From contig JADYYH010000080.1 of NCBI GenBank assembly GCA_020853775.1, positions 1-37,184 of the forward strand: a DNA stretch of 37,184 bases, in the 5' to 3' direction. The stretch comes from Nitrospira sp. GTDB taxonomy: Bacteria; Nitrospirota; Nitrospiria; Nitrospirales; Nitrospiraceae. Every line of letters begins with the position of its first letter. The stretch's first letter is position 1. This document shows, piece by piece, positions 13,380-23,083 of the stretch. Position numbers and translations under genes: made by a program. Below the pieces are notes generated by a model that was given only the letters and a program-made list of their open reading frames with translations, ran no database searches and was not told where the DNA came from.

Positions 13380-14381
13380 ATGAATCGTGCGCTTTTATTA
13401 GTAGTCCTGTTATTGGGCGTCACGAGTACGGTGTATGCCGACGGCGGACATGATCATCACGCCATTCCCACCATGCCGAGTTTAGGCCAGACGAAACTCA
13501 CCATCGAGGACCAGACCGTCACGCTCACATTTGGTCCCGTCGATCTCCCGACCGGCCACGACGGCGATCTGGCCTCCAGTATGCCCAAGAAGGTGTTCCA
13601 ACTGCCCGAGGACACCTACATGATCGGGTACAAATCCGAGGTCTTTAGCAAGGATGGCAAACCGCTCCCGAAGAATTATCTCCATCACATTCTCATGTTG
13701 AACAATGACAAACCCAGCGTTTCGTGCGATGGCGAACCCTTGTTTTTTGCCGGAGCCGGACTCGAAATGACCGAAGCCCGTTTCCCGGACGGATACGGAG
13801 TGAAGTTGGGCAAAGGACAAAACCTGATGTCCGTGGTGGCCTTCTATCACAAGGCTCCGCCGACGAAAGACGTGATGGCTCGCTTCACGATGTACGTCGC
13901 ACCGAAGGGCGCGAAGGTACAGGAGATGGACGTCTACCAGGTGGGCGTGAACATTGTGTGTTACAGCAAATTCGCGCAACGGGGCCCGGACCAGACGGAT
14001 GAAGGCATCGAAATCAAGCCGGGAGTCTCGGTCCTCTCCGCACCCCTGAAATTCAATATGGATGGTTGCGTCAAGTTTGCCTATCCCCACGGACATGACG
14101 AGTTGCTCATGGTAGCGCTGGAGAATAAGACCGCCAACGAGACGCTCCTCCGCACTGTCCCCGAAGTCGATGCCGACGGCACGTTCAGGGACTTCCGACC
14201 CCATCAGGTCTATCGGGACAGCAAAGGATTTCCAGTGACGAAGCAGGATAACTACGAAATGGTCATGGTTCATCATCACCTACTGCAAAACCCTAACATC
14301 CAACATGGCATGGGCAACTATCTGCTCTATATGACGCCTGGCAGCTGCCCGCAGTCATCGACCACCGCTTCGGCGCATTAG
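13380..14381 (+). CDS. Exported His-rich protein, PHM/Nod19-like beta-sandwich (putative metal binding)
   Basis: A strong GAGGAGG lies 6-8 bases before the ATG, and the first 20 residues are a signal peptide ending VYADG. The start of the mature protein is HDHHAIP, a likely metal ligand cluster. The body contains NYLHHILMLNN followed by PLFFAGAGLEM and FPDGYGVKLGKGQ, a series that recalls the plant Nod19 and copper-dependent PHM-like beta-sandwich families, where a His-His-hydrophobic motif binds copper. Further His groups are AFYHKA, YPHGHDE and VHHHLLQ. Paired cysteines (CDGEP, IVCYS, DGCVKF, GSCPQ) fit an extracytoplasmic protein. Copper binding is inference, and the family call is tentative. 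Confidence 0.6.
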   Translation: MNRALLLVVLLLGVTSTVYADGGHDHHAIPTMPSLGQTKLTIEDQTVTLTFGPVDLPTGHDGDLASSMPKKVFQLPEDTYMIGYKSEVFSKDGKPLPKNYLHHILMLNNDKPSVSCDGEPLFFAGAGLEMTEARFPDGYGVKLGKGQNLMSVVAFYHKAPPTKDVMARFTMYVAPKGAKVQEMDVYQVGVNIVCYSKFAQRGPDQTDEGIEIKPGVSVLSAPLKFNMDGCVKFAYPHGHDELLMVALENKTANETLLRTVPEVDADGTFRDFRPHQVYRDSKGFPVTKQDNYEMVMVHHHLLQNPNIQHGMGNYLLYMTPGSCPQSSTTASAH

Positions 14382-14742: not shown

Positions 14743-17700
14743 GTGAAGACCATGAGCTCTTCCATGTCCTTGCCTGAACCTTCGCTGCAGATCCTCCTCA
14801 TCAATGAGAATCCCGACGAAATCAAGTTGGTGACCACCAGCTTACGAAGCTTCTTCGTCGGTTGCCGCATCGAAGCCGGCTACTCATCCGACGATGCCCT
14901 TGCCTTCAGCCGCCAGGGTGACTGGCAAATCATCCTCATCGATCAGGATCTGAGGCCGGAACGAGGGCTCGATTTGCTGGCACGACTTCGTCGCAACGCC
15001 CCCTACGCCGCGATTCTGCTTCAGACCAACGACAGTGACTCACACACCGCCGTGCAAGCGCTCCAACAGGGAGCCGATTTTTTGCTTTTCAAACGATCTC
15101 CCGGGTTTATCACAGAGCTCCTCTTTTCGGTGCAGGAAGCCCTCGAAAAACGCGACCTGCAAATGAAGCTCGACCACACATTTCAACGCCACCTGCGCGT
15201 GATCGAAACACTGAGTGATTTATTGTACGAGCTCGATGCAGAAGGTCGTTTTGTTTATGTAAGCCCGACGGTCACCGTGATGCTCGGATACACGGCGGAG
15301 GAACTTGCCGGCCGGCACTACTCGCTCTTACTTCCTCCTCAACAGGAATCAGCCGCGCGTTTCCGGTTGAATGAACGCCGAGCCGGCAGTCGTTCAACGC
15401 GCCGAATGGAACTGACTCTGTACCGGAAGCCCCCTCCAGATGTTCCGCCGGCACCTCTCATTGTGGAAGTCACGGCTAAGGGACTCTTCGACTCCACGAA
15501 TCGGTATCTGGGAACGGTCGGATTGTTACGCGATCTGTCTCAACAAAAGGCCCAACAGACCCGCCTGGCGGAACTGGAATCGCGCCTTCAAGAAACCGAT
15601 CGTCAACTCACCCTCTCGCGTGAGGCGGCCCGTGTGTCTCGCCAGTTGCAACAACCGCTTACGTCCTTACTTCAGGACTCACAACGATTGCTGATATCGA
15701 TTCAAGACAGCCGGATCGAGCAACATGTTGAGACGATGGTCGCCCAGGTATCACAAGCGAGCCGACTGGGACACCAGCTGGCCGAAGCGATCCATGCCCC
15801 CACGACAGAAATGGTTCCTCTCGACCTCGATGACGTACTTCAGGCGGTTGCTCGGACAACACAAGGTGAGACCCAGGCCCCAGGCTTCCTGCTCACCACC
15901 CACTTTGCAGGCAACCTTCCCGTCATCCGTGGTTCGCGTTCGGCCCTGGAAACCCTTGCTCACACCCTGCTCACCTATGCCTCTCAATCCGCATCCCGCA
16001 ACATGACTCCCAGGCTCGTATTGCAAACAGCGGCATTGACCGTAGATAGTTCGGGAACTCACCCGCAACACGTGGGTTCGCCCTCGCAGCCGGTTCGTAC
16101 CTATGCAAGCTTTACGATCCGGGGAAGTGCCGGCGCTCTGCGTCTGCCGTCGGACAGTCAATCAACGCACGATCGTCCGGCGGAGAGTTTGTTTCACGCA
16201 CATCGCATCGTTCAGGCGCATCGAGGCGCCATCGAAGTCGAACATACACCTGAAAGTGGCGTAGCCATCACCGTTCGCATTCCGGCTTCGGACGACTTCT
16301 CGCGGAGCGGATCACCGGAGCCACCGGCCTCGCCGCCCCCGTTCGATAATCAGACGCCAACGGGATACATTCCCCACCAACACCCTGAACGTCGCAGGTC
16401 AGAGCGCAAGCCGTTTTCTTTACCCATCCAATTGTCGATCGGCGGCACGACTCTTCGTGGCCTATTACGCAATATGAGTACGGAAGGGGCGCTCCTGACT
16501 ATCCGAGGAATGGAGGCTTCCATCCATCTGCAGCCGGCCTATGTCGTCATCAAGACACCGGTCAGTTTTCTTGAACTTCAGGGAGTAGTGCATGAGCGGC
16601 CCTCCGCCTCAACCGAATTGTCCCTGCCAGCCATTAAGGATTTCGTGATTTCGTTTTCTCTGGCCGTTGACAATGAGCGCAATGTACTCCGGTCGCTGCT
16701 TGAAGGCCTGCAGGAGGGGTCTCCGCAGATCACCTTCGAAGGATTAATTCTTCCGATCCCCCCAGCAGCAACGAGCCGCGAGCGTGAACCTCTCCCATCC
16801 TCAGCCATGCCGGAAGATCGGCGCGAAACCATTCGACTGAGCATCTCCTGCCCCGTACAGATGACGGAATCTCCAACGGGCTCACCGCATTCGATCGGCA
16901 GGATCATCAATCTCAATGTGAACGGAGCTTGCATCGAGGTGCCTGCAGCTGCCGTCTTAGCCGGACATTCGCCGCTCATCCATCTCGACCTGATGGAATC
17001 GACCGTCATCGCATCCGGCACCTCGCCATCACCTGGGATCGATCAATCATTGCCGGCACAGATCGTCTGGAGACGTCCGGCGGAGATGATCTCGGCACAC
17101 CGCCCCGCGGCAACGGAAGAACAACGACATCGGATCGGGATACGCTTTGGCAGTTTGTCCTCCACGCAAGAGCAGAGATTACGTAGCATCATGGAAACCG
17201 AGTTCCGCGCAGAGCAGAATCTGGCCGAATCCGAGTGGGACGCCCCTGTCCTCACCGAGTCACGCACCCTACGCGACCGTGAAGGCTATACGATTGCGTT
17301 ACGGCATGACTTTCCTACGCAAGGCGGCGGAGCGCACGATCCGCTGGTGCTCCTCTGCCCGGGATACGGCACAACGCAACACGCCTACATTGCCTTGGCT
17401 TATATGCTGGCTGGCCGCGGATTTCATGTGCTGCGATACGATCACAGCCGCCATATCGGTCTGAGCGATGGCGACCCCTCGCAGACCACGTTCACCTCCC
17501 TTGAAGACGACCTCGATACGGTGTTGAGCTTCGTCCAAGAACATTGGCCGGAACGGCCTCTCACTCTCGTGGCACCAGACCTTCTCGGTCGAATCGCTTT
17601 ACGAAGACGGGATTGGCACAGATGGATTCGTCGCCTCCTGCTTGTTAATCCGACACTCGATCTCGGACAGTGCCTGCAAAACCTGCATCAGCGGGATCTG

Positions 17701-18948
17701 TTACACGAACATCTCAGCGGCACGCGCCTGGGACTGGGGAATTTGTTCGGCATTCCGCTCGACATCGACCATTTTCTGGCCGACGCGGTTGCCGCTCAGT
17801 ATTCGGATGTCACAGTCCTGCAGGATGAGCTGACCCACTGTGGAACAGACGTGGTTCTTCTAACCGGTGGACAAGATGGCCCTGATGGCTCGATTCCCGC
17901 CCCTTCCCCGATCCTTGTCAATGATGTCCTCTCTCGGCTTGGCGCGAAAGGCAAGAAAGTGCTGTTACCATCGTCGACCCTGGCGGCAGGTCCTGTTCCC
18001 CCGCCGACTCTGCGTGCAAGCTGGCAACAGCTTGCACACCTTTGCCAAGCGGGACAGGCGCTTCATGAACCAGGGACCGTCATGCTTCGGCCGCTCTTAC
18101 AGGCAACCTCCACTCGGGCCCGGTTCGAGCGCGATCAGCTTCGCCACAAACAGGGCATCGGCACCGCAAGCAGCGAACGGCTCTGGACGGCACACACTGA
18201 TCTCACCCGCGCCATGGATGAGCTGCCGTCACATTGGCATTCGATCGATCAGCTCTATCAACTCCTGCAACCGCTCGATGGAAACCTGGCGCTCCTGGAC
18301 ATCGGATGCGGCATGCATTCCTTCGCCCGGTTACTCCTACTCAATCTGTCATACCGCCTGCGCGCGCAAACCTGGCAGCATACTCAACCGCTCCGGTATG
18401 TCGGCCTCGACTTCTCCCCTGGCGCGCTGCACGCTGCGCGAGCCTCGACACAAGAGGCGTTACAACACCTCGACAAGTTGTTTTCCGGACGTGTTGCTTC
18501 ACCAACTCCCGTCACTCAGCAATGGATTCTCGGCCGCTCAGCAGACACGCTGCCCTGTGCAGACCGCTCCTTTGATCGTGTGGTGGCGAATTTCTCGCTC
18601 AGTTTTGCACGGTCACCAATGCAGATGTTGAGGGAGCTCTTCCGCGTTCTTCGGCCCGGCGGAAAACTTATCTTGAAAGCTTTCACGCCGACCGCCGATC
18701 TGGCTCGCCTCTACAGACCGTCCTTACATGAACTCGGCATCGATGCGTTTTCGGGAGCGCCACGCTTGGCCTTGCACCGCATGGCACAGTGCTGTGTGGC
18801 GCTACGTACAGGACAATTGCACACGTTTGAAGAAGACAGCCTGACCACTCAGCTTTCGCGCGTCACACCGCTTGCGCCACGGCTCGTTCGTACCCTCGCT
18901 GGACAGATTCTGCTCGCCGCCGCTGAAAAACCTGATTCCTCTAGCTGA
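14743..18948 (+). CDS. Receiver-PAS-pseudokinase-PilZ-PilZ-alpha/beta hydrolase-methyltransferase fusion
   Basis: The product has 1401 residues in one uninterrupted frame. Domains in order: receiver (about 16-137; Asp67 the likely phospho-acceptor, but the usual acidic pair is NE, as in LLINENPDE); PAS (150-266, DLLYELDAEGRF and LGYTAEEL); a coiled segment and histidine-kinase-like part (270-513) with Arg300 where the H-box has His (SRQLQQPLTSL) and no N, G1 or G2 boxes; PilZ 1 (about 547-646; RRSER 551-555 and NMSTEG 577-582); PilZ 2 (about 690-820; RETIR 694-698 and NLNVNG 723-728); LuxD-like alpha/beta hydrolase (about 837-1112; LLCPGYGTTQHAY); class I SAM methyltransferase (about 1137-1401; DIGCG 1186-1190, VLRPGGKLILKAF). 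The PilZ motifs suit cyclic-di-GMP binding, and the methyltransferase SAM motif looks intact. The hydrolase has Asp946 and Thr1079 where LuxD has Ser and His. Start is GTG; an ATG at 14752 is an alternative. Confidence 0.85.
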   Translation: MKTMSSSMSLPEPSLQILLINENPDEIKLVTTSLRSFFVGCRIEAGYSSDDALAFSRQGDWQIILIDQDLRPERGLDLLARLRRNAPYAAILLQTNDSDSHTAVQALQQGADFLLFKRSPGFITELLFSVQEALEKRDLQMKLDHTFQRHLRVIETLSDLLYELDAEGRFVYVSPTVTVMLGYTAEELAGRHYSLLLPPQQESAARFRLNERRAGSRSTRRMELTLYRKPPPDVPPAPLIVEVTAKGLFDSTNRYLGTVGLLRDLSQQKAQQTRLAELESRLQETDRQLTLSREAARVSRQLQQPLTSLLQDSQRLLISIQDSRIEQHVETMVAQVSQASRLGHQLAEAIHAPTTEMVPLDLDDVLQAVARTTQGETQAPGFLLTTHFAGNLPVIRGSRSALETLAHTLLTYASQSASRNMTPRLVLQTAALTVDSSGTHPQHVGSPSQPVRTYASFTIRGSAGALRLPSDSQSTHDRPAESLFHAHRIVQAHRGAIEVEHTPESGVAITVRIPASDDFSRSGSPEPPASPPPFDNQTPTGYIPHQHPERRRSERKPFSLPIQLSIGGTTLRGLLRNMSTEGALLTIRGMEASIHLQPAYVVIKTPVSFLELQGVVHERPSASTELSLPAIKDFVISFSLAVDNERNVLRSLLEGLQEGSPQITFEGLILPIPPAATSREREPLPSSAMPEDRRETIRLSISCPVQMTESPTGSPHSIGRIINLNVNGACIEVPAAAVLAGHSPLIHLDLMESTVIASGTSPSPGIDQSLPAQIVWRRPAEMISAHRPAATEEQRHRIGIRFGSLSSTQEQRLRSIMETEFRAEQNLAESEWDAPVLTESRTLRDREGYTIALRHDFPTQGGGAHDPLVLLCPGYGTTQHAYIALAYMLAGRGFHVLRYDHSRHIGLSDGDPSQTTFTSLEDDLDTVLSFVQEHWPERPLTLVAPDLLGRIALRRRDWHRWIRRLLLVNPTLDLGQCLQNLHQRDLLHEHLSGTRLGLGNLFGIPLDIDHFLADAVAAQYSDVTVLQDELTHCGTDVVLLTGGQDGPDGSIPAPSPILVNDVLSRLGAKGKKVLLPSSTLAAGPVPPPTLRASWQQLAHLCQAGQALHEPGTVMLRPLLQATSTRARFERDQLRHKQGIGTASSERLWTAHTDLTRAMDELPSHWHSIDQLYQLLQPLDGNLALLDIGCGMHSFARLLLLNLSYRLRAQTWQHTQPLRYVGLDFSPGALHAARASTQEALQHLDKLFSGRVASPTPVTQQWILGRSADTLPCADRSFDRVVANFSLSFARSPMQMLRELFRVLRPGGKLILKAFTPTADLARLYRPSLHELGIDAFSGAPRLALHRMAQCCVALRTGQLHTFEEDSLTTQLSRVTPLAPRLVRTLAGQILLAAAEKPDSSS

Positions 18949-19011: not shown

Positions 19012-20337
19012 GTGGCAAACTGGTGTCTGGCTCGATATTCCTTCCATGGGACTATGACGCTCCACTCCAACAGTCGGCACATGCCCGTCCTTTCAACGTC
19101 CATGGACATCATCAGACTGCTTGGCGATTTTGCCGAGACGTTAGGATCCGCACGGGATGTGTCGTGTCTCGGGAATCCGATTGTGACGACTCTCTCGCAG
19201 CACACTCGGCTGCCCGAAGCAGCGTTATGGATTCGAGCGTCAGCAGATGGACCGTATCGTCTCATTGCATCCCATGGCCACAACGCTCCTTCTTCACTAC
19301 CATCGACCTTGACCGTTGATCACCCACTCGTGATAGGTCTATCTGCCAAGCCCTATGTGGTTCACGGTGGCCATGATCCAGCCTCGTCGGTGGGGTTTGC
19401 CATGACGGCGGTCCGTGCAACCCTGTGTCTCGCGCTACGAAACAAAGGGCGGCTCCTCGGCCTCTGCAGCTTGGGTCCACTCAATACCGACAGCCACTTC
19501 GACCAAGCAAGCATCACCATCGTTGAAACAATCGCGTGCATCGCCGCCAATAGCCTCGATCATCACCTCACGCAAGACGACTTCCGCCGCTCATCCACGC
19601 TGATGAGACGGACAGACCGACTCCGTTCTTTGGAAATCATGGCCGGCGGGTTTGCCCATGAAATCCGCAACCCACTCACATCGATCAAAACGTTCGTCCA
19701 GTTGGCCCCTCAGCGACAACAGGATCCGGTCTTCATCAAAGAGTTCAGTAAGCTGGCTATAGAGGACATTCATCGCATCGAGCGCCTGCTGCATGAGATT
19801 CTCGACTATGCCAGTTACATGACCCCTCGGCCTACCGAGGTAGACGTGAACGACCTCGTCGCCTCCTGTATCGGATTCATCTCATCGAGCGCTGCGCATC
19901 GAGGCATTCAAGTCCAGACGCACCTGTCACCTCAGCTCCCTCTGCTCTTGCTCGATCGCCAACAGATTAAACAAGTGTTGTTGAATTTGCTGCTGAATGC
20001 TCTGGATGCAATGCCCAATGGCAACGGCATTATTCGGGTTCATACGCGTCTCTTGTCGGAAGGGGGTCACCCACCGCGGGTGCAATTGGACGTCGAGGAC
20101 GAAGGATGCGGAATCGCGCCCGATCATCTCGAGCACATTTTCGATCCGTTTTTCAGCACCAAACATTCCAATAGTGCTAGTGAAGGAGCCGGACTCGGGC
20201 TCACCACGGCGCATCAAATTGTTCGTGAGCATGGCGGCACCCTCACAGTCGAAAGTCGCGTAGGAGCAGGCTCCACGTTCTCAGTCCATCTTCCAGTTCC
20301 CGAGACAGGCCCCACAGTGTCAGCAGCACGGGAGTAA
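19012..20337 (+). CDS. GAF-domain sensor histidine kinase (NtrB/AtoS-like)
   Basis: This soluble sensor kinase has a GAF-like sensory domain (about 30-190) followed by an intact transmitter. The H-box FAHEIRNPLTSIKTF carries His216; the N-box is LLNLLLNALDAMP (about 325), G1 is VEDEGCGI (about 361), the F-box FDPFFSTK and G2 GAGLGLTTA (about 393). No membrane helices are seen, so it senses a cytoplasmic signal. The response regulator gene starts one base after its stop, so they form a cognate pair, presumably phosphorylating Asp52 of that regulator. Start GTG at 19012 has only a weak ribosome binding site; ATG codons at 19054 and 19081 are alternatives. Confidence 0.9.
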   Translation: MANWCLARYSFHGTMTLHSNSRHMPVLSTSMDIIRLLGDFAETLGSARDVSCLGNPIVTTLSQHTRLPEAALWIRASADGPYRLIASHGHNAPSSLPSTLTVDHPLVIGLSAKPYVVHGGHDPASSVGFAMTAVRATLCLALRNKGRLLGLCSLGPLNTDSHFDQASITIVETIACIAANSLDHHLTQDDFRRSSTLMRRTDRLRSLEIMAGGFAHEIRNPLTSIKTFVQLAPQRQQDPVFIKEFSKLAIEDIHRIERLLHEILDYASYMTPRPTEVDVNDLVASCIGFISSSAAHRGIQVQTHLSPQLPLLLLDRQQIKQVLLNLLLNALDAMPNGNGIIRVHTRLLSEGGHPPRVQLDVEDEGCGIAPDHLEHIFDPFFSTKHSNSASEGAGLGLTTAHQIVREHGGTLTVESRVGAGSTFSVHLPVPETGPTVSAARE

Positions 20338-20338
20338 T

Positions 20339-21754
20339 ATGAAAAAACGAGTACTACTTGTCGACGATGAGCCGCGTGTCCGAGCCTCGCTGAGAACGGT
20401 CTTGGAGCCGACGTATGAAATTTTGGAAGCGGCGGATGCCACCGAAGGCCTTCGTAGCTTTAAACACGATGCCCCTGATCTCGTGCTCCTGGACGTGATC
20501 CTGCCGGGAACGGATGGTCTGTCGGCACTGCAAACCATGCGTACCGAGAATCGAGCCATCCCCGTGATTATGCTGACCGGCACCAAAGCCGTGAAAACTG
20601 CCGTCGATGCCATGAAGCTCGGAGCCGCCGACTATCTGTCCAAACCCTTCGACGTCGAGGAACTGCAGATCGTCATCGAACGAACACTGGGCAAGCAGGA
20701 ACTCGAGCAGGAAGTCCGCCAATTGCGCGCGCAGGTGGTGCAGCGTTATGCCTTCCACAATCTCATCGGCAAAAGCCCTGCCATGCAGGAAATCTACGCC
20801 AAAATCGAACAAGTGGCAGACAGCCGCACCACCGTGCTGGTGACCGGTGAAAGCGGGACCGGGAAAGAACTGGTCGCCAAAGCGATTCACTACAACAGTG
20901 CCAGGCGGGAACGCCCGTTCGTCGCACTCAATTGCGCGGCCTTGCCGGAAACACTCATCGAAAGCGAATTGTTCGGACATGAAAAGGGTTCATTCACGGA
21001 TGCCACGGCACGCCGAGTGGGGCAGTTCGAATTGGCGCACACGGGCACGCTGTTTCTCGATGAAATCGGCGATCTCAGTCCGGCCACGCAGGCGAAACTT
21101 TTGCGGGTGTTGCAGGAACGGGAATTCACGCGGGTCGGCGGGGTGCAATCCATCAAGGTCGATGTCCGGATCGTCGCGGCGACCAACAAAAACCTCGATG
21201 AGATGGTCAGAAAAAACCAGTTTCGCGAGGACTTGTATTACCGTATCAACGTCATTGCGCTCTACCTCCCGCCCTTACGCGAACGGGGCGAAGACATTGC
21301 CCTGCTCGCCAAGCACTTTCTTTCCAAACGCATTGAGGAAGAGAAACGGCCGTCTCAGGAGTTCACAAAAGACGCGCTCGAATTGATCTCACATTATCCG
21401 TGGCCGGGCAACGTGCGCGAGATGGAAAATATCATCGAACAAGCGTTCATCTGGTCGAAAGGCTCCACGGTGATCACGCCGGAGCACTTGCCGAATATTC
21501 TCCGGACCGATACCCGATCATCGTCCCTTCGAGACGACACCCTCGCCGGACGATTATCGTTGGAAAAGGCCGTCATGGAATTCGAACGCGAAATTATTTT
21601 GGATGCGCTCAAGCGGACGACATACGTACAAACACATGCGGCTACCATGCTGGGCATCAGCCGTCGCATGCTAAAGTATCGCATGGACACCCTGGGAATC
21701 AGTCGGCCTGACAGCGGCGGCGGAAATGCCGAGACGCCACTGCCTCGGGAATGA
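20339..21754 (+). CDS. NtrC-family sigma-54-dependent response regulator
   Basis: The 471-residue protein has a receiver domain (1-120; VLLVDDEPR start, Asp52 in LLDVILPG, Lys in SKPFDVEE), an AAA+ sigma-54 activation domain (about 140-380; Walker A GESGTGKE near 170, Walker B LFLDEIGDL near 239) and a Fis-type helix-turn-helix at the C-terminus (AATMLGISRRMLKYRM). The sigma-54 contact loop reads GSFTDA (217-222) instead of GAFTGA; the essential Thr is kept. GGGAG lies 4 bases before the ATG. It activates unknown sigma-54 promoters by ATP hydrolysis and is the partner of the upstream GAF kinase. Confidence 0.93.
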   Translation: MKKRVLLVDDEPRVRASLRTVLEPTYEILEAADATEGLRSFKHDAPDLVLLDVILPGTDGLSALQTMRTENRAIPVIMLTGTKAVKTAVDAMKLGAADYLSKPFDVEELQIVIERTLGKQELEQEVRQLRAQVVQRYAFHNLIGKSPAMQEIYAKIEQVADSRTTVLVTGESGTGKELVAKAIHYNSARRERPFVALNCAALPETLIESELFGHEKGSFTDATARRVGQFELAHTGTLFLDEIGDLSPATQAKLLRVLQEREFTRVGGVQSIKVDVRIVAATNKNLDEMVRKNQFREDLYYRINVIALYLPPLRERGEDIALLAKHFLSKRIEEEKRPSQEFTKDALELISHYPWPGNVREMENIIEQAFIWSKGSTVITPEHLPNILRTDTRSSSLRDDTLAGRLSLEKAVMEFEREIILDALKRTTYVQTHAATMLGISRRMLKYRMDTLGISRPDSGGGNAETPLPRE

Positions 21755-21761
21755 CACACTC

Positions 21762-21776
21762 TGGCACAACAGTTTC
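21762..21776 (+). promoter_or_regulatory. Possible sigma-54 (-24/-12) element upstream of the HD-GYP gene
   Basis: TGGCAC (21762-21767) matches the -24 element exactly. After five bases comes TTTC instead of TTGC for the -12 element, so the important G at -13 is lost. It lies directly after the sigma-54 activator gene and about 165 bases before the next start. One substituted key base makes this a weak call. Confidence 0.25.
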
Positions 21777-21870
21777 GGCATCTGTCTCACAGTTCTTACA
21801 GTAGGAGCCGCCGTGCCCAAATATCTTGTGGCCTGAAATAGACAGACCTGCTATATATTGTTCGTTTCGC

Positions 21871-21882: not shown

Positions 21883-21940
21883 GGTACAGGTTTTGCGTTC
21901 CGTTTCTCCTGAAGTTCGCAATACACCGGGAGCAATCTGG

Positions 21941-23083
21941 ATGGGAACTCAGGCATCAGCTGAACACATGAGCACAAAACCGTCGGTCCTGGTCGTCGAC
22001 GACGAAACAGGCCCGCGGGACGCGTTGAAAGTGATCCTTCGCCCCTTCTTCACCATTCACTCTGCCGACAACGCCAAATCCGCACTCCGGGTTCTGAAGG
22101 ACCAGCACATCGATCTCATCACCCTGGACCAGAAATTACCCGACCGTCAAGGCATCGACCTCCTGCAGGATATCAAGCAGGACTACGCCGACATTGAAGT
22201 CATCATCATTACTGGCTACGGCAGCCTGAAGTCCGCTATGGAAGGCATCCGGCACGGCGCGGCAGGGTATCTTCTCAAGCCGTTCAATGTAACGGAGCTG
22301 ATCACGCTGATCAATCAGACCCTGGAGAAGAAACAGCGACTCGACTACTTACGATCGTTTCTGAAAACGTCGACCGCCTTGTGGGGCACCGAAGAGGAAG
22401 TGGCGCAAGCGTGGAAGGATTTGCAAGCGAACTACTTCACGATCGGCAATTCCTCCACTGAAGCGATCGGAGGCCCAGGGGACGTCACAGCGCTCATTCC
22501 ATTGTTATCCGACTTGCTTGAAGCGAAGGACCGCCAGCTCCTCAACCATTGCAGCCGAGTAAGTTTCTATGCATCGCTTCTCGCGAACCAGCTGACGCTG
22601 CCGCTGCCCGACCAAAAGGCTTTGGCGCTGGGAGCGTTCCTGCATGATATCGGCAAGATCAGTCTCTCCAGCTACAAGTATTCAGCGGATGACGATGAGA
22701 ACCTGAAAACCAACACCCATGGAAGAGAATGTTTCGAGGCAGGGGCCCGGATGCTGTTACCGCTTGGCTTCCAAGCAGAGGTCGGGCAAATCGTGGCCTA
22801 TCATCAGGAGCGCTTCGACGGTGTCGGCAATCCACACGGCCTGGAAGGCGAAGGCATCCCGCTGTTGGCACGAATCGTCGCCATCGCGCAGGCATTCGAC
22901 AACCTGACGGTGGATATGCCGGGGCATCAACCGACATCCATCGATGAAGCCATTCGGCAAATTCTGCTGCAAGCCGAGACGCACTTCGATCCCAAGTTGA
23001 CGGAGCTCTTTGCGCAGGTGGTGCGGGAATGTAAGTCTTCTCTGCCGGCGCTCGCGATTGCCAAGACCTCGTCGACCAGCTGA
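21941..23083 (+). CDS. Response regulator with HD-GYP-type output domain (RpfG-like, degenerate motif)
   Basis: The receiver domain (about 11-130) has the VLVVDDE acidic pair, Asp63 (TLDQKLPD) and a LLKPFN lysine. The second half is an HD domain of HD-GYP kind, the family that degrades cyclic-di-GMP: FLHDIGK (His235-Asp236), a THGRECFEAG segment and YHQERFDGVGNP. The canonical HHE...GYP is here HQE...GNP (Gln289, Asn297), and the later Asp of aDaFDaL is Gln317, so several metal or signature residues are replaced. Activity is therefore uncertain, and it could act as a cyclic-di-GMP sensor or adaptor. The frame opens with a TTG at 21893, but the ATG at 21941 has GGGAG 8 bases upstream and is preferred (380 residues). 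Confidence 0.88.
   Translation: MGTQASAEHMSTKPSVLVVDDETGPRDALKVILRPFFTIHSADNAKSALRVLKDQHIDLITLDQKLPDRQGIDLLQDIKQDYADIEVIIITGYGSLKSAMEGIRHGAAGYLLKPFNVTELITLINQTLEKKQRLDYLRSFLKTSTALWGTEEEVAQAWKDLQANYFTIGNSSTEAIGGPGDVTALIPLLSDLLEAKDRQLLNHCSRVSFYASLLANQLTLPLPDQKALALGAFLHDIGKISLSSYKYSADDDENLKTNTHGRECFEAGARMLLPLGFQAEVGQIVAYHQERFDGVGNPHGLEGEGIPLLARIVAIAQAFDNLTVDMPGHQPTSIDEAIRQILLQAETHFDPKLTELFAQVVRECKSSLPALAIAKTSSTS

Follow-up and report, generated by a model that had tools for sequence, protein, structure and literature searches.

A seven-domain fusion with two PilZ domains and abandoned catalytic sites in Nitrospira, a possible pseudoenzyme signalling hub

Introduction

PilZ domains are known as receptors of cyclic-di-GMP. 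In the stretch of DNA analysed here (37,184 nucleotides of Nitrospira sp., contig JADYYH010000080.1, assembly GCA_020853775.1; referred to as the window), two of them lie within a single long gene, which also encodes a receiver domain, a PAS domain and a kinase-like part on the N-terminal side and a hydrolase-like and a methyltransferase-like domain on the C-terminal side.

14743..18948, + strand: whole gene of the receiver-PAS-pseudokinase-PilZ-PilZ-hydrolase-like-methyltransferase-like fusion; 1,401 codons open, probable start ATG 14764 or ATG 14752

The question raised by this locus is what a protein composed in this way does. A sequence-only reading had suggested a methyltransferase whose activity is controlled by phosphorylation together with cyclic-di-GMP, a proposal that is now poorly supported, the S-adenosylmethionine (SAM) motif being non-canonical or broken and the acidic pair of the receiver altered. 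The fusion is a maintained protein in which the ligand motifs have been retained and the catalytic motifs abandoned, and with moderate confidence we interpret it as a pseudoenzyme signalling hub, which would read cyclic-di-GMP together with other inputs and, through binding, influence the two-component circuit encoded next to it. The direct observations, described below, concern architecture, orthology, synteny, site losses and selection.

Integrity and conservation of the gene

An uninterrupted 4.2-kb frame joining seven domains had been claimed, and this was borne out: all 1,401 codons are open and all seven domains were found, PilZ and methyltransferase both being recovered in the Pfam search that had been proposed as a check. 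The start is probably the ATG at 14764 (Met8) or the ATG at 14752 rather than the GTG at 14743, and the first of these is favoured because Met8 is invariant in 15 orthologues. The fusion is encoded in all 29 Nitrospira genomes and forms a single frame of 1,402-1,453 codons in 27 of them (four in single-contig assemblies); in the other two, both fragmented assemblies, the gene is interrupted by a contig end. Candidatus Nitrospira defluvii is one of the named relatives that have it. The same architecture could be listed for further Nitrospiraceae, since 107 of 147 sampled genomes of the family gave a match and about 74 (27 Nitrospira; seven genus codes; a hand count from the match table) a nearly full-length one. 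Identity among the Nitrospira orthologues is mostly 57-94% (50% for the most distant) and that of near-full-length matches outside the genus 29-45%. A search of a plasmid collection returned nothing beyond partial matches to single domains.

The ratio of nonsynonymous to synonymous substitution rates (dN/dS) was determined for ten pairs and stays below 1 in all domains. It is tight in the receiver (0.03-0.10), the PAS domain (0.03-0.21), the dimerisation hairpin of the kinase-like part (0.03-0.14) and the first PilZ domain (0.06-0.21), amounts to 0.13-0.30 in the hydrolase and 0.11-0.29 in the methyltransferase, and is looser in the ATPase-like part (0.24-0.55) and in the second PilZ domain outside its motif (0.2-0.8). 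These ratios and the 27 single-frame genomes exclude chance and assembly error, including a false join of two genes. They also bear on the idea of a decaying enzyme relic devoid of present function, for which the relaxed ATPase-like and second PilZ domains (up to 0.55 and 0.77) could be cited and which we regard as the least probable of all explanations considered: a decaying gene would not have values of mostly 0.03-0.3 in receiver, PAS, hairpin, first PilZ, hydrolase and methyltransferase domains, the strong constraint on the first four of these already contradicts the idea, and the frame is full-length in about 74 genomes with invariant PilZ motifs and a fixed neighbourhood. In an alignment of 41 proteins, 70 of 1,389 positions are invariant, including R551, R555, G582, R694, R698, G728 and Asp946. 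One orthologue (G301:C46:30112-34263) contains an in-frame TAG and is either a pseudogene or affected by a sequencing error.

Receiver, PAS and kinase-like domains

The N-terminal part of the protein comprises the following domains.

14782..15162, + strand: receiver domain (residues 14-140); Pfam 2e-10 and structural match; Asp67, Thr95 and Lys117 kept, acidic pair Asn21-Glu22
15196..15534, + strand: PAS domain (residues 152-264); Pfam 1.1e-10
15538..15792, + strand: pseudokinase dimerisation hairpin (residues 266-350); Arg300 in the place of the phospho-acceptor His
15811..16293, + strand: pseudokinase ATPase-like domain (residues 357-517); structural match to NRII; N-box Asn and G boxes lost

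For the kinase-like stretch between the PAS and PilZ domains no match was obtained with Pfam; it is covered by the NCBIfam profiles of AtoS and NifL. In the predicted structure of residues 1-537 (mean predicted local distance difference test score, pLDDT, 63; in places within the ATPase-like domain it exceeds 80), this stretch forms a two-helix hairpin and an ATPase-like domain (357-517), and the latter superposes on NtrB/NRII (1r62) with a Z score of 17.6 over 129 residues and a root-mean-square deviation of 2.3. The fusion thus matches NifL, AtoS and NtrB in profile or fold and differs from kinases of this type in lacking both the phospho-acceptor His and the N-box Asn. The former is replaced by Arg in 27 of 27 Nitrospira proteins and lost in 11 of 12 others (kept in 1/39 overall), and the latter is absent from every orthologue scored, so that the earlier designation as a pseudokinase is correct.

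The Pfam match of the receiver spans residues 17-118, and the corresponding part of the model matches known receivers with Z scores of up to 18.8. Although the residues for phosphorylation are kept (D67 in 38, Thr or Ser in 39 and Lys in 37 of 39 orthologues), the Mg-binding acidic pair has Asn or Ser in first position in 39/39 and an acidic residue in second position in 33/39, and for this reason gating by phosphorylation is possible but doubtful.

Proteins resembling the N-terminal part occur elsewhere. A receiver-PAS-kinase-receiver protein of 669-721 aa (L119, L120 and L122, genus code g20) has an intact phospho-acceptor His (RIAHDFNNML) and may be related to the N-terminal half of the fusion. 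Another member of the family, with a small genome of 1.5 Mb (G035), has a similar receiver-PAS module joined to a shikimate-dehydrogenase-like protein (L062:6966-9107).

PilZ domains

16387..16722, + strand: PilZ domain 1; RxxxR (R551, R555) and NMSTEG (577-582); Pfam and site conservation
16816..17193, + strand: PilZ domain 2 (residues 692-817); Pfam; RxxxR (R694, R698) and NLNVNG (723-728)

Two PilZ stretches were recognised by Pfam (1.7e-12 for the protein), the better one at residues 692-817 and the other from residue 549. The ligand motifs picked out earlier (RRSER/NMSTEG and RETIR/NLNVNG) are present and conserved, NLNVNG carrying Asn for the usual Ser. Both pairs of RxxxR arginines are found in 41/41 orthologues. 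For the [D/N]xSxxG motif, the first PilZ domain has N/D in 40, S in 36 and G in 41 of the 41 proteins, and the second has N/D and G in all and S in 36. Arginines and last glycines (G582, G728) are thus invariant among proteins down to about 30% identity.

Most likely the pair binds cyclic-di-GMP, as suggested by five GGDEF domains in the genome, in which 28 PilZ domains were also counted above the cut-off, and by an HD-GYP-like protein encoded in the same gene cassette. The alternative is a sensor whose PilZ domains do not recognise cyclic-di-GMP and have instead a different ligand or a purely structural role. It could draw on the match of the first domain to Pfam profile positions 1-41 only and on the Asn for Ser and the fast evolution outside the motif in the second, but the invariance of the arginine pairs and motif glycines, the GGDEF proteins and the adjoining HD-GYP-like protein make it rather improbable.

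Hydrolase-like and methyltransferase-like domains

17272..18072, + strand: LuxD-like alpha/beta hydrolase remnant (residues 844-1110); Asp946 (17578-17580) in the place of the nucleophile Ser, acid and His missing
18130..18942, + strand: class I methyltransferase-like domain (residues 1130-1400); motif I LDIGCGMHSF, His1192 for the third Gly

From residue 864, Pfam assigns a hydrolase of the LuxD/S33 type (Acyl_transf_2 7.6e-8, Hydrolase_4 2.9e-9). The hydrolase domain of the sequence-only reading is real; what that reading overlooked is the complete loss of the catalytic triad and, in the neighbouring methyltransferase, the irregular SAM motif. When the triad positions were set by aligning an intact paralogue (see below) to the LuxD thioesterase 1tht, the nucleophile position was found to be Asp946 in 41/41 orthologues, and the acid and His partners are gone. 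LuxD, a myristoyl-acyl carrier protein thioesterase (PF02273), is the closest solved relative of this part, with an E-value of 2.9e-7 for the fusion and of 6.2e-17 over 224 residues for the paralogue, whose Ser, Asp and His align; it differs in having no PilZ, methyltransferase or receiver domain and in keeping the triad. Asp-nucleophile hydrolases require a catalytic His. The invariant Asp at the nucleophile elbow might be taken for a new nucleophile of a dehalogenase- or epoxide-hydrolase-like enzyme, but His and acid have disappeared throughout the clade, and we consider such a reading very improbable.

The methyltransferase match covers residues 1185-1311 (1.6e-12, 48 bits). Motif I reads GCGxHSF, with His for the third glycine, in 29/29 Nitrospira proteins, and in sister genera it is often broken (VDIDGSNTDL, MDVEVGLGDF, VDAGIGQSDM; often GVGxGD, GIGQSD, DGSNTD or EVGLGD), the acidic residue after strand 2 often being Gly or Arg there. 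Catalysis can therefore not be the function common to the clade. Because the SAM site is only partly altered in Nitrospira, an active methyltransferase gated by receiver phosphorylation and cyclic-di-GMP is the main rival of the pseudoenzyme hub, although we judge it less likely, indeed unlikely. In its favour, the Nitrospira domain keeps D-x-G-C-G, D1223 after strand 2 (28/29) and the LPFADxSFD region, scores well with Pfam and is under purifying selection (dN/dS about 0.13), and there are functional class I methyltransferases that do without the third glycine of motif I. It is opposed by the His in 29/29 Nitrospira, the broken motifs of the sister genera, the altered acidic pair of the receiver and the adjoining hydrolase, which is dead while that of the paralogue is intact.

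Intact paralogue and related architectures

The same genome contains a paralogue of 910 aa (G000:C34:24799-27528) with the architecture PilZ-PilZ-hydrolase-methyltransferase, which has the same domain order as the C-terminal part of the fusion (31% identity) and no receiver, PAS or pseudokinase. Its catalytic residues (Ser, Asp and His, GCGNGN and the acidic residue after strand 2) are kept in 13/13 Nitrospira. Like the fusion it adjoins a gene for a GAF histidine kinase, located directly after it; unlike that of the fusion, this kinase has a seven-transmembrane (7TM) region. Shorter relatives of the paralogue type extend to other families of the phylum.

When the active-site columns were removed before tree calculation, the seven-domain proteins grouped in one clade (100/97), the sister of which is a 1,241-aa form of G030 (100/100); a further tree included more rows. 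Several other arrangements were found. G032 has two separate genes at this place in the cassette, one for a 450-aa receiver-PAS-PilZ protein and the other for a PilZ-PilZ-PilZ-hydrolase-methyltransferase protein of about 1,060 aa, and the kinase, NtrC and receiver-HD genes come next; G046 has receiver-PAS-PilZ-PilZ-hydrolase-methyltransferase, G187 receiver-PAS-PilZ-methyltransferase without hydrolase, and G237, G238 and G245 fused forms with an intact hydrolase. A strict rule tying the receiver-PAS fusion to the absence of the catalytic Ser was dropped, as L124, L125 and L127 are fused and keep the Ser. A 1,666-aa frame (L123) that seemed to fuse enzyme and 7TM kinase was likewise rejected: at the junction the sequence does not share the frame of the homologous L121 tail and resembles a frameshift of a draft contig.

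Neighbouring genes and the kinase partner

The fusion is preceded by genes for RuvC-like, PP2C phosphatase, SnoaL-like and secreted proteins and followed by three genes, each identified by profile match and conserved synteny.

19012..20337, + strand: soluble GAF-HisKA-HATPase histidine kinase without transmembrane segment
20339..21754, + strand: NtrC-type sigma-54 activator with receiver
21893..23083, + strand: receiver-HD protein (HD-GYP-like, GNP variant)

Beyond these lie recN, thioredoxin and LptD genes on the opposite strand. The order of the cassette is common to Nitrospira and other genera of the family, which settles the conservation of the kinase, NtrC and HD gene set raised earlier. 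The receiver-HD protein is likely a cyclic-di-GMP phosphodiesterase. The NtrC-type protein is 79-97% identical between genera, where the parts of the fusion are mostly 30-50% identical. Identity of the neighbours with PrsK/PrsR of the PEP-CTERM system was rejected, as the scores are below the NCBIfam cut-offs (TIGR02915, 441 versus 502.6 bits; TIGR02916, 108 versus 300).

The state of the hydrolase and the type of the adjoining kinase go together. Next to Ser-bearing hydrolases, the kinase has 3-12 hydrophobic segments in all scorable cases and a HisKA_7TM domain where scanned; next to hydrolases lacking nucleophile, acid and His, it is of the soluble GAF type (418-497 aa, no transmembrane segment; none present in G234). 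The sole exception so far is the G046 type, which has Asn for Ser but keeps Asp, His and the 7TM kinase. Repeated independent loss of triad and 7TM region is not supported, since a tree uniting all disarmed forms was not rejected (approximately unbiased test, p 0.20 and 0.23).

Sigma-54 promoters were not found above chance across the window (2 versus 3.1 expected), and in relatives no promoter-like match occurs within 450 bases upstream of the fusion. An inverted repeat, TGACACA-N24-TGTCTCA, at 21752-21789 begins in the stop codon of the NtrC gene and is a possible activator binding site; many relatives have portions of it at the corresponding position, and the relaxed pattern has a single occurrence genome-wide. 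Nearly always directly upstream of the fusion is the gene for the secreted protein (13380-14381, 333 aa; 64-96% identity across the family), which is His-rich (LHH, MVHHH, GHDHH) and for which no Pfam or NCBIfam match and no significant match in the PDB were obtained.

Proposed function and relation to known systems

The fusion looks like an enzyme converted by evolution into a sensor or docking protein. Its ancestor would have been a PilZ-hydrolase-methyltransferase enzyme adjoining a 7TM sensor kinase, and its N-terminus would have gained a receiver-PAS module that elsewhere is a separate neighbouring gene. Cyclic-di-GMP would enter via the two PilZ domains and further inputs via receiver and PAS. 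Since neither the kinase-like nor the hydrolase-like part can perform the chemistry known for it, and given a compromised methyltransferase site, the protein would most likely have a conformational output, binding and modulating the circuit of soluble GAF kinase, NtrC activator and receiver-HD protein, with the dimerisation hairpin as a plausible contact; these contacts and the direction of the effect are what we infer.

Several points weigh against the pseudoenzyme hub. Besides the retained features of the Nitrospira methyltransferase, which suggest that SAM binding may persist in this genus itself, the association of a lost triad with a lost 7TM region may trace to one event (one independent pair is supported), the second PilZ domain evolves fast outside its motif, the binding of cyclic-di-GMP is a property we infer from motifs and genome content, and the folds of hydrolase and methyltransferase rest on sequence because the model of the C-terminal half is too poor for use (pLDDT 36).

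In the open-access literature, with subscription journals mostly outside the coverage, no mention was found of PilZ together with hydrolase and methyltransferase, or of this architecture in connection with LuxD or Nitrospira, in line with the earlier statement that the domain order is undescribed. The nearest described link between PilZ, SAM methyltransferase and cyclic-di-GMP is MapZ, a PilZ adaptor of the methyltransferase CheR1 in Pseudomonas aeruginosa (PMC6370697); there, separate proteins and a chemotaxis enzyme of the CheR type are involved, whereas in the fusion the domains are joined and the methyltransferase is doubtful. In Ralstonia, the methyltransferase PhcB makes a fatty acid methyl ester signal that is sensed by the histidine kinase PhcS (PMC8578825). 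This pairing offers only an analogy for the intact paralogue beside its 7TM kinase and none for the fusion, and it differs from the paralogue in having no PilZ or hydrolase. A speculative extension, to which we assign a smaller chance than to either an active methyltransferase or a sensor blind to cyclic-di-GMP, is that paralogue and 7TM GAF kinase represent an ancestral pair of cyclic-di-GMP-gated synthase of a lipid-derived signal (e.g. a fatty acid methyl ester) and membrane receptor, and that the lineage of the window disarmed both at once, the dead enzyme becoming an intracellular receptor of that ligand or of cyclic-di-GMP which drives the kinase directly.

The fusion is real, family-wide in Nitrospiraceae and apparently undescribed, and the bacteria that use it for signalling are the main nitrite oxidisers. 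With its relatives it provides a natural series from enzyme to regulator: intact beside a 7TM kinase, partly disarmed, and fully disarmed beside a soluble kinase. The protein also hints at a cyclic-di-GMP circuit encoded at this locus, made up of PilZ hub, kinase, sigma-54 activator and HD-GYP-like protein, and in the intact sister enzyme both substrate and signal are directly testable.

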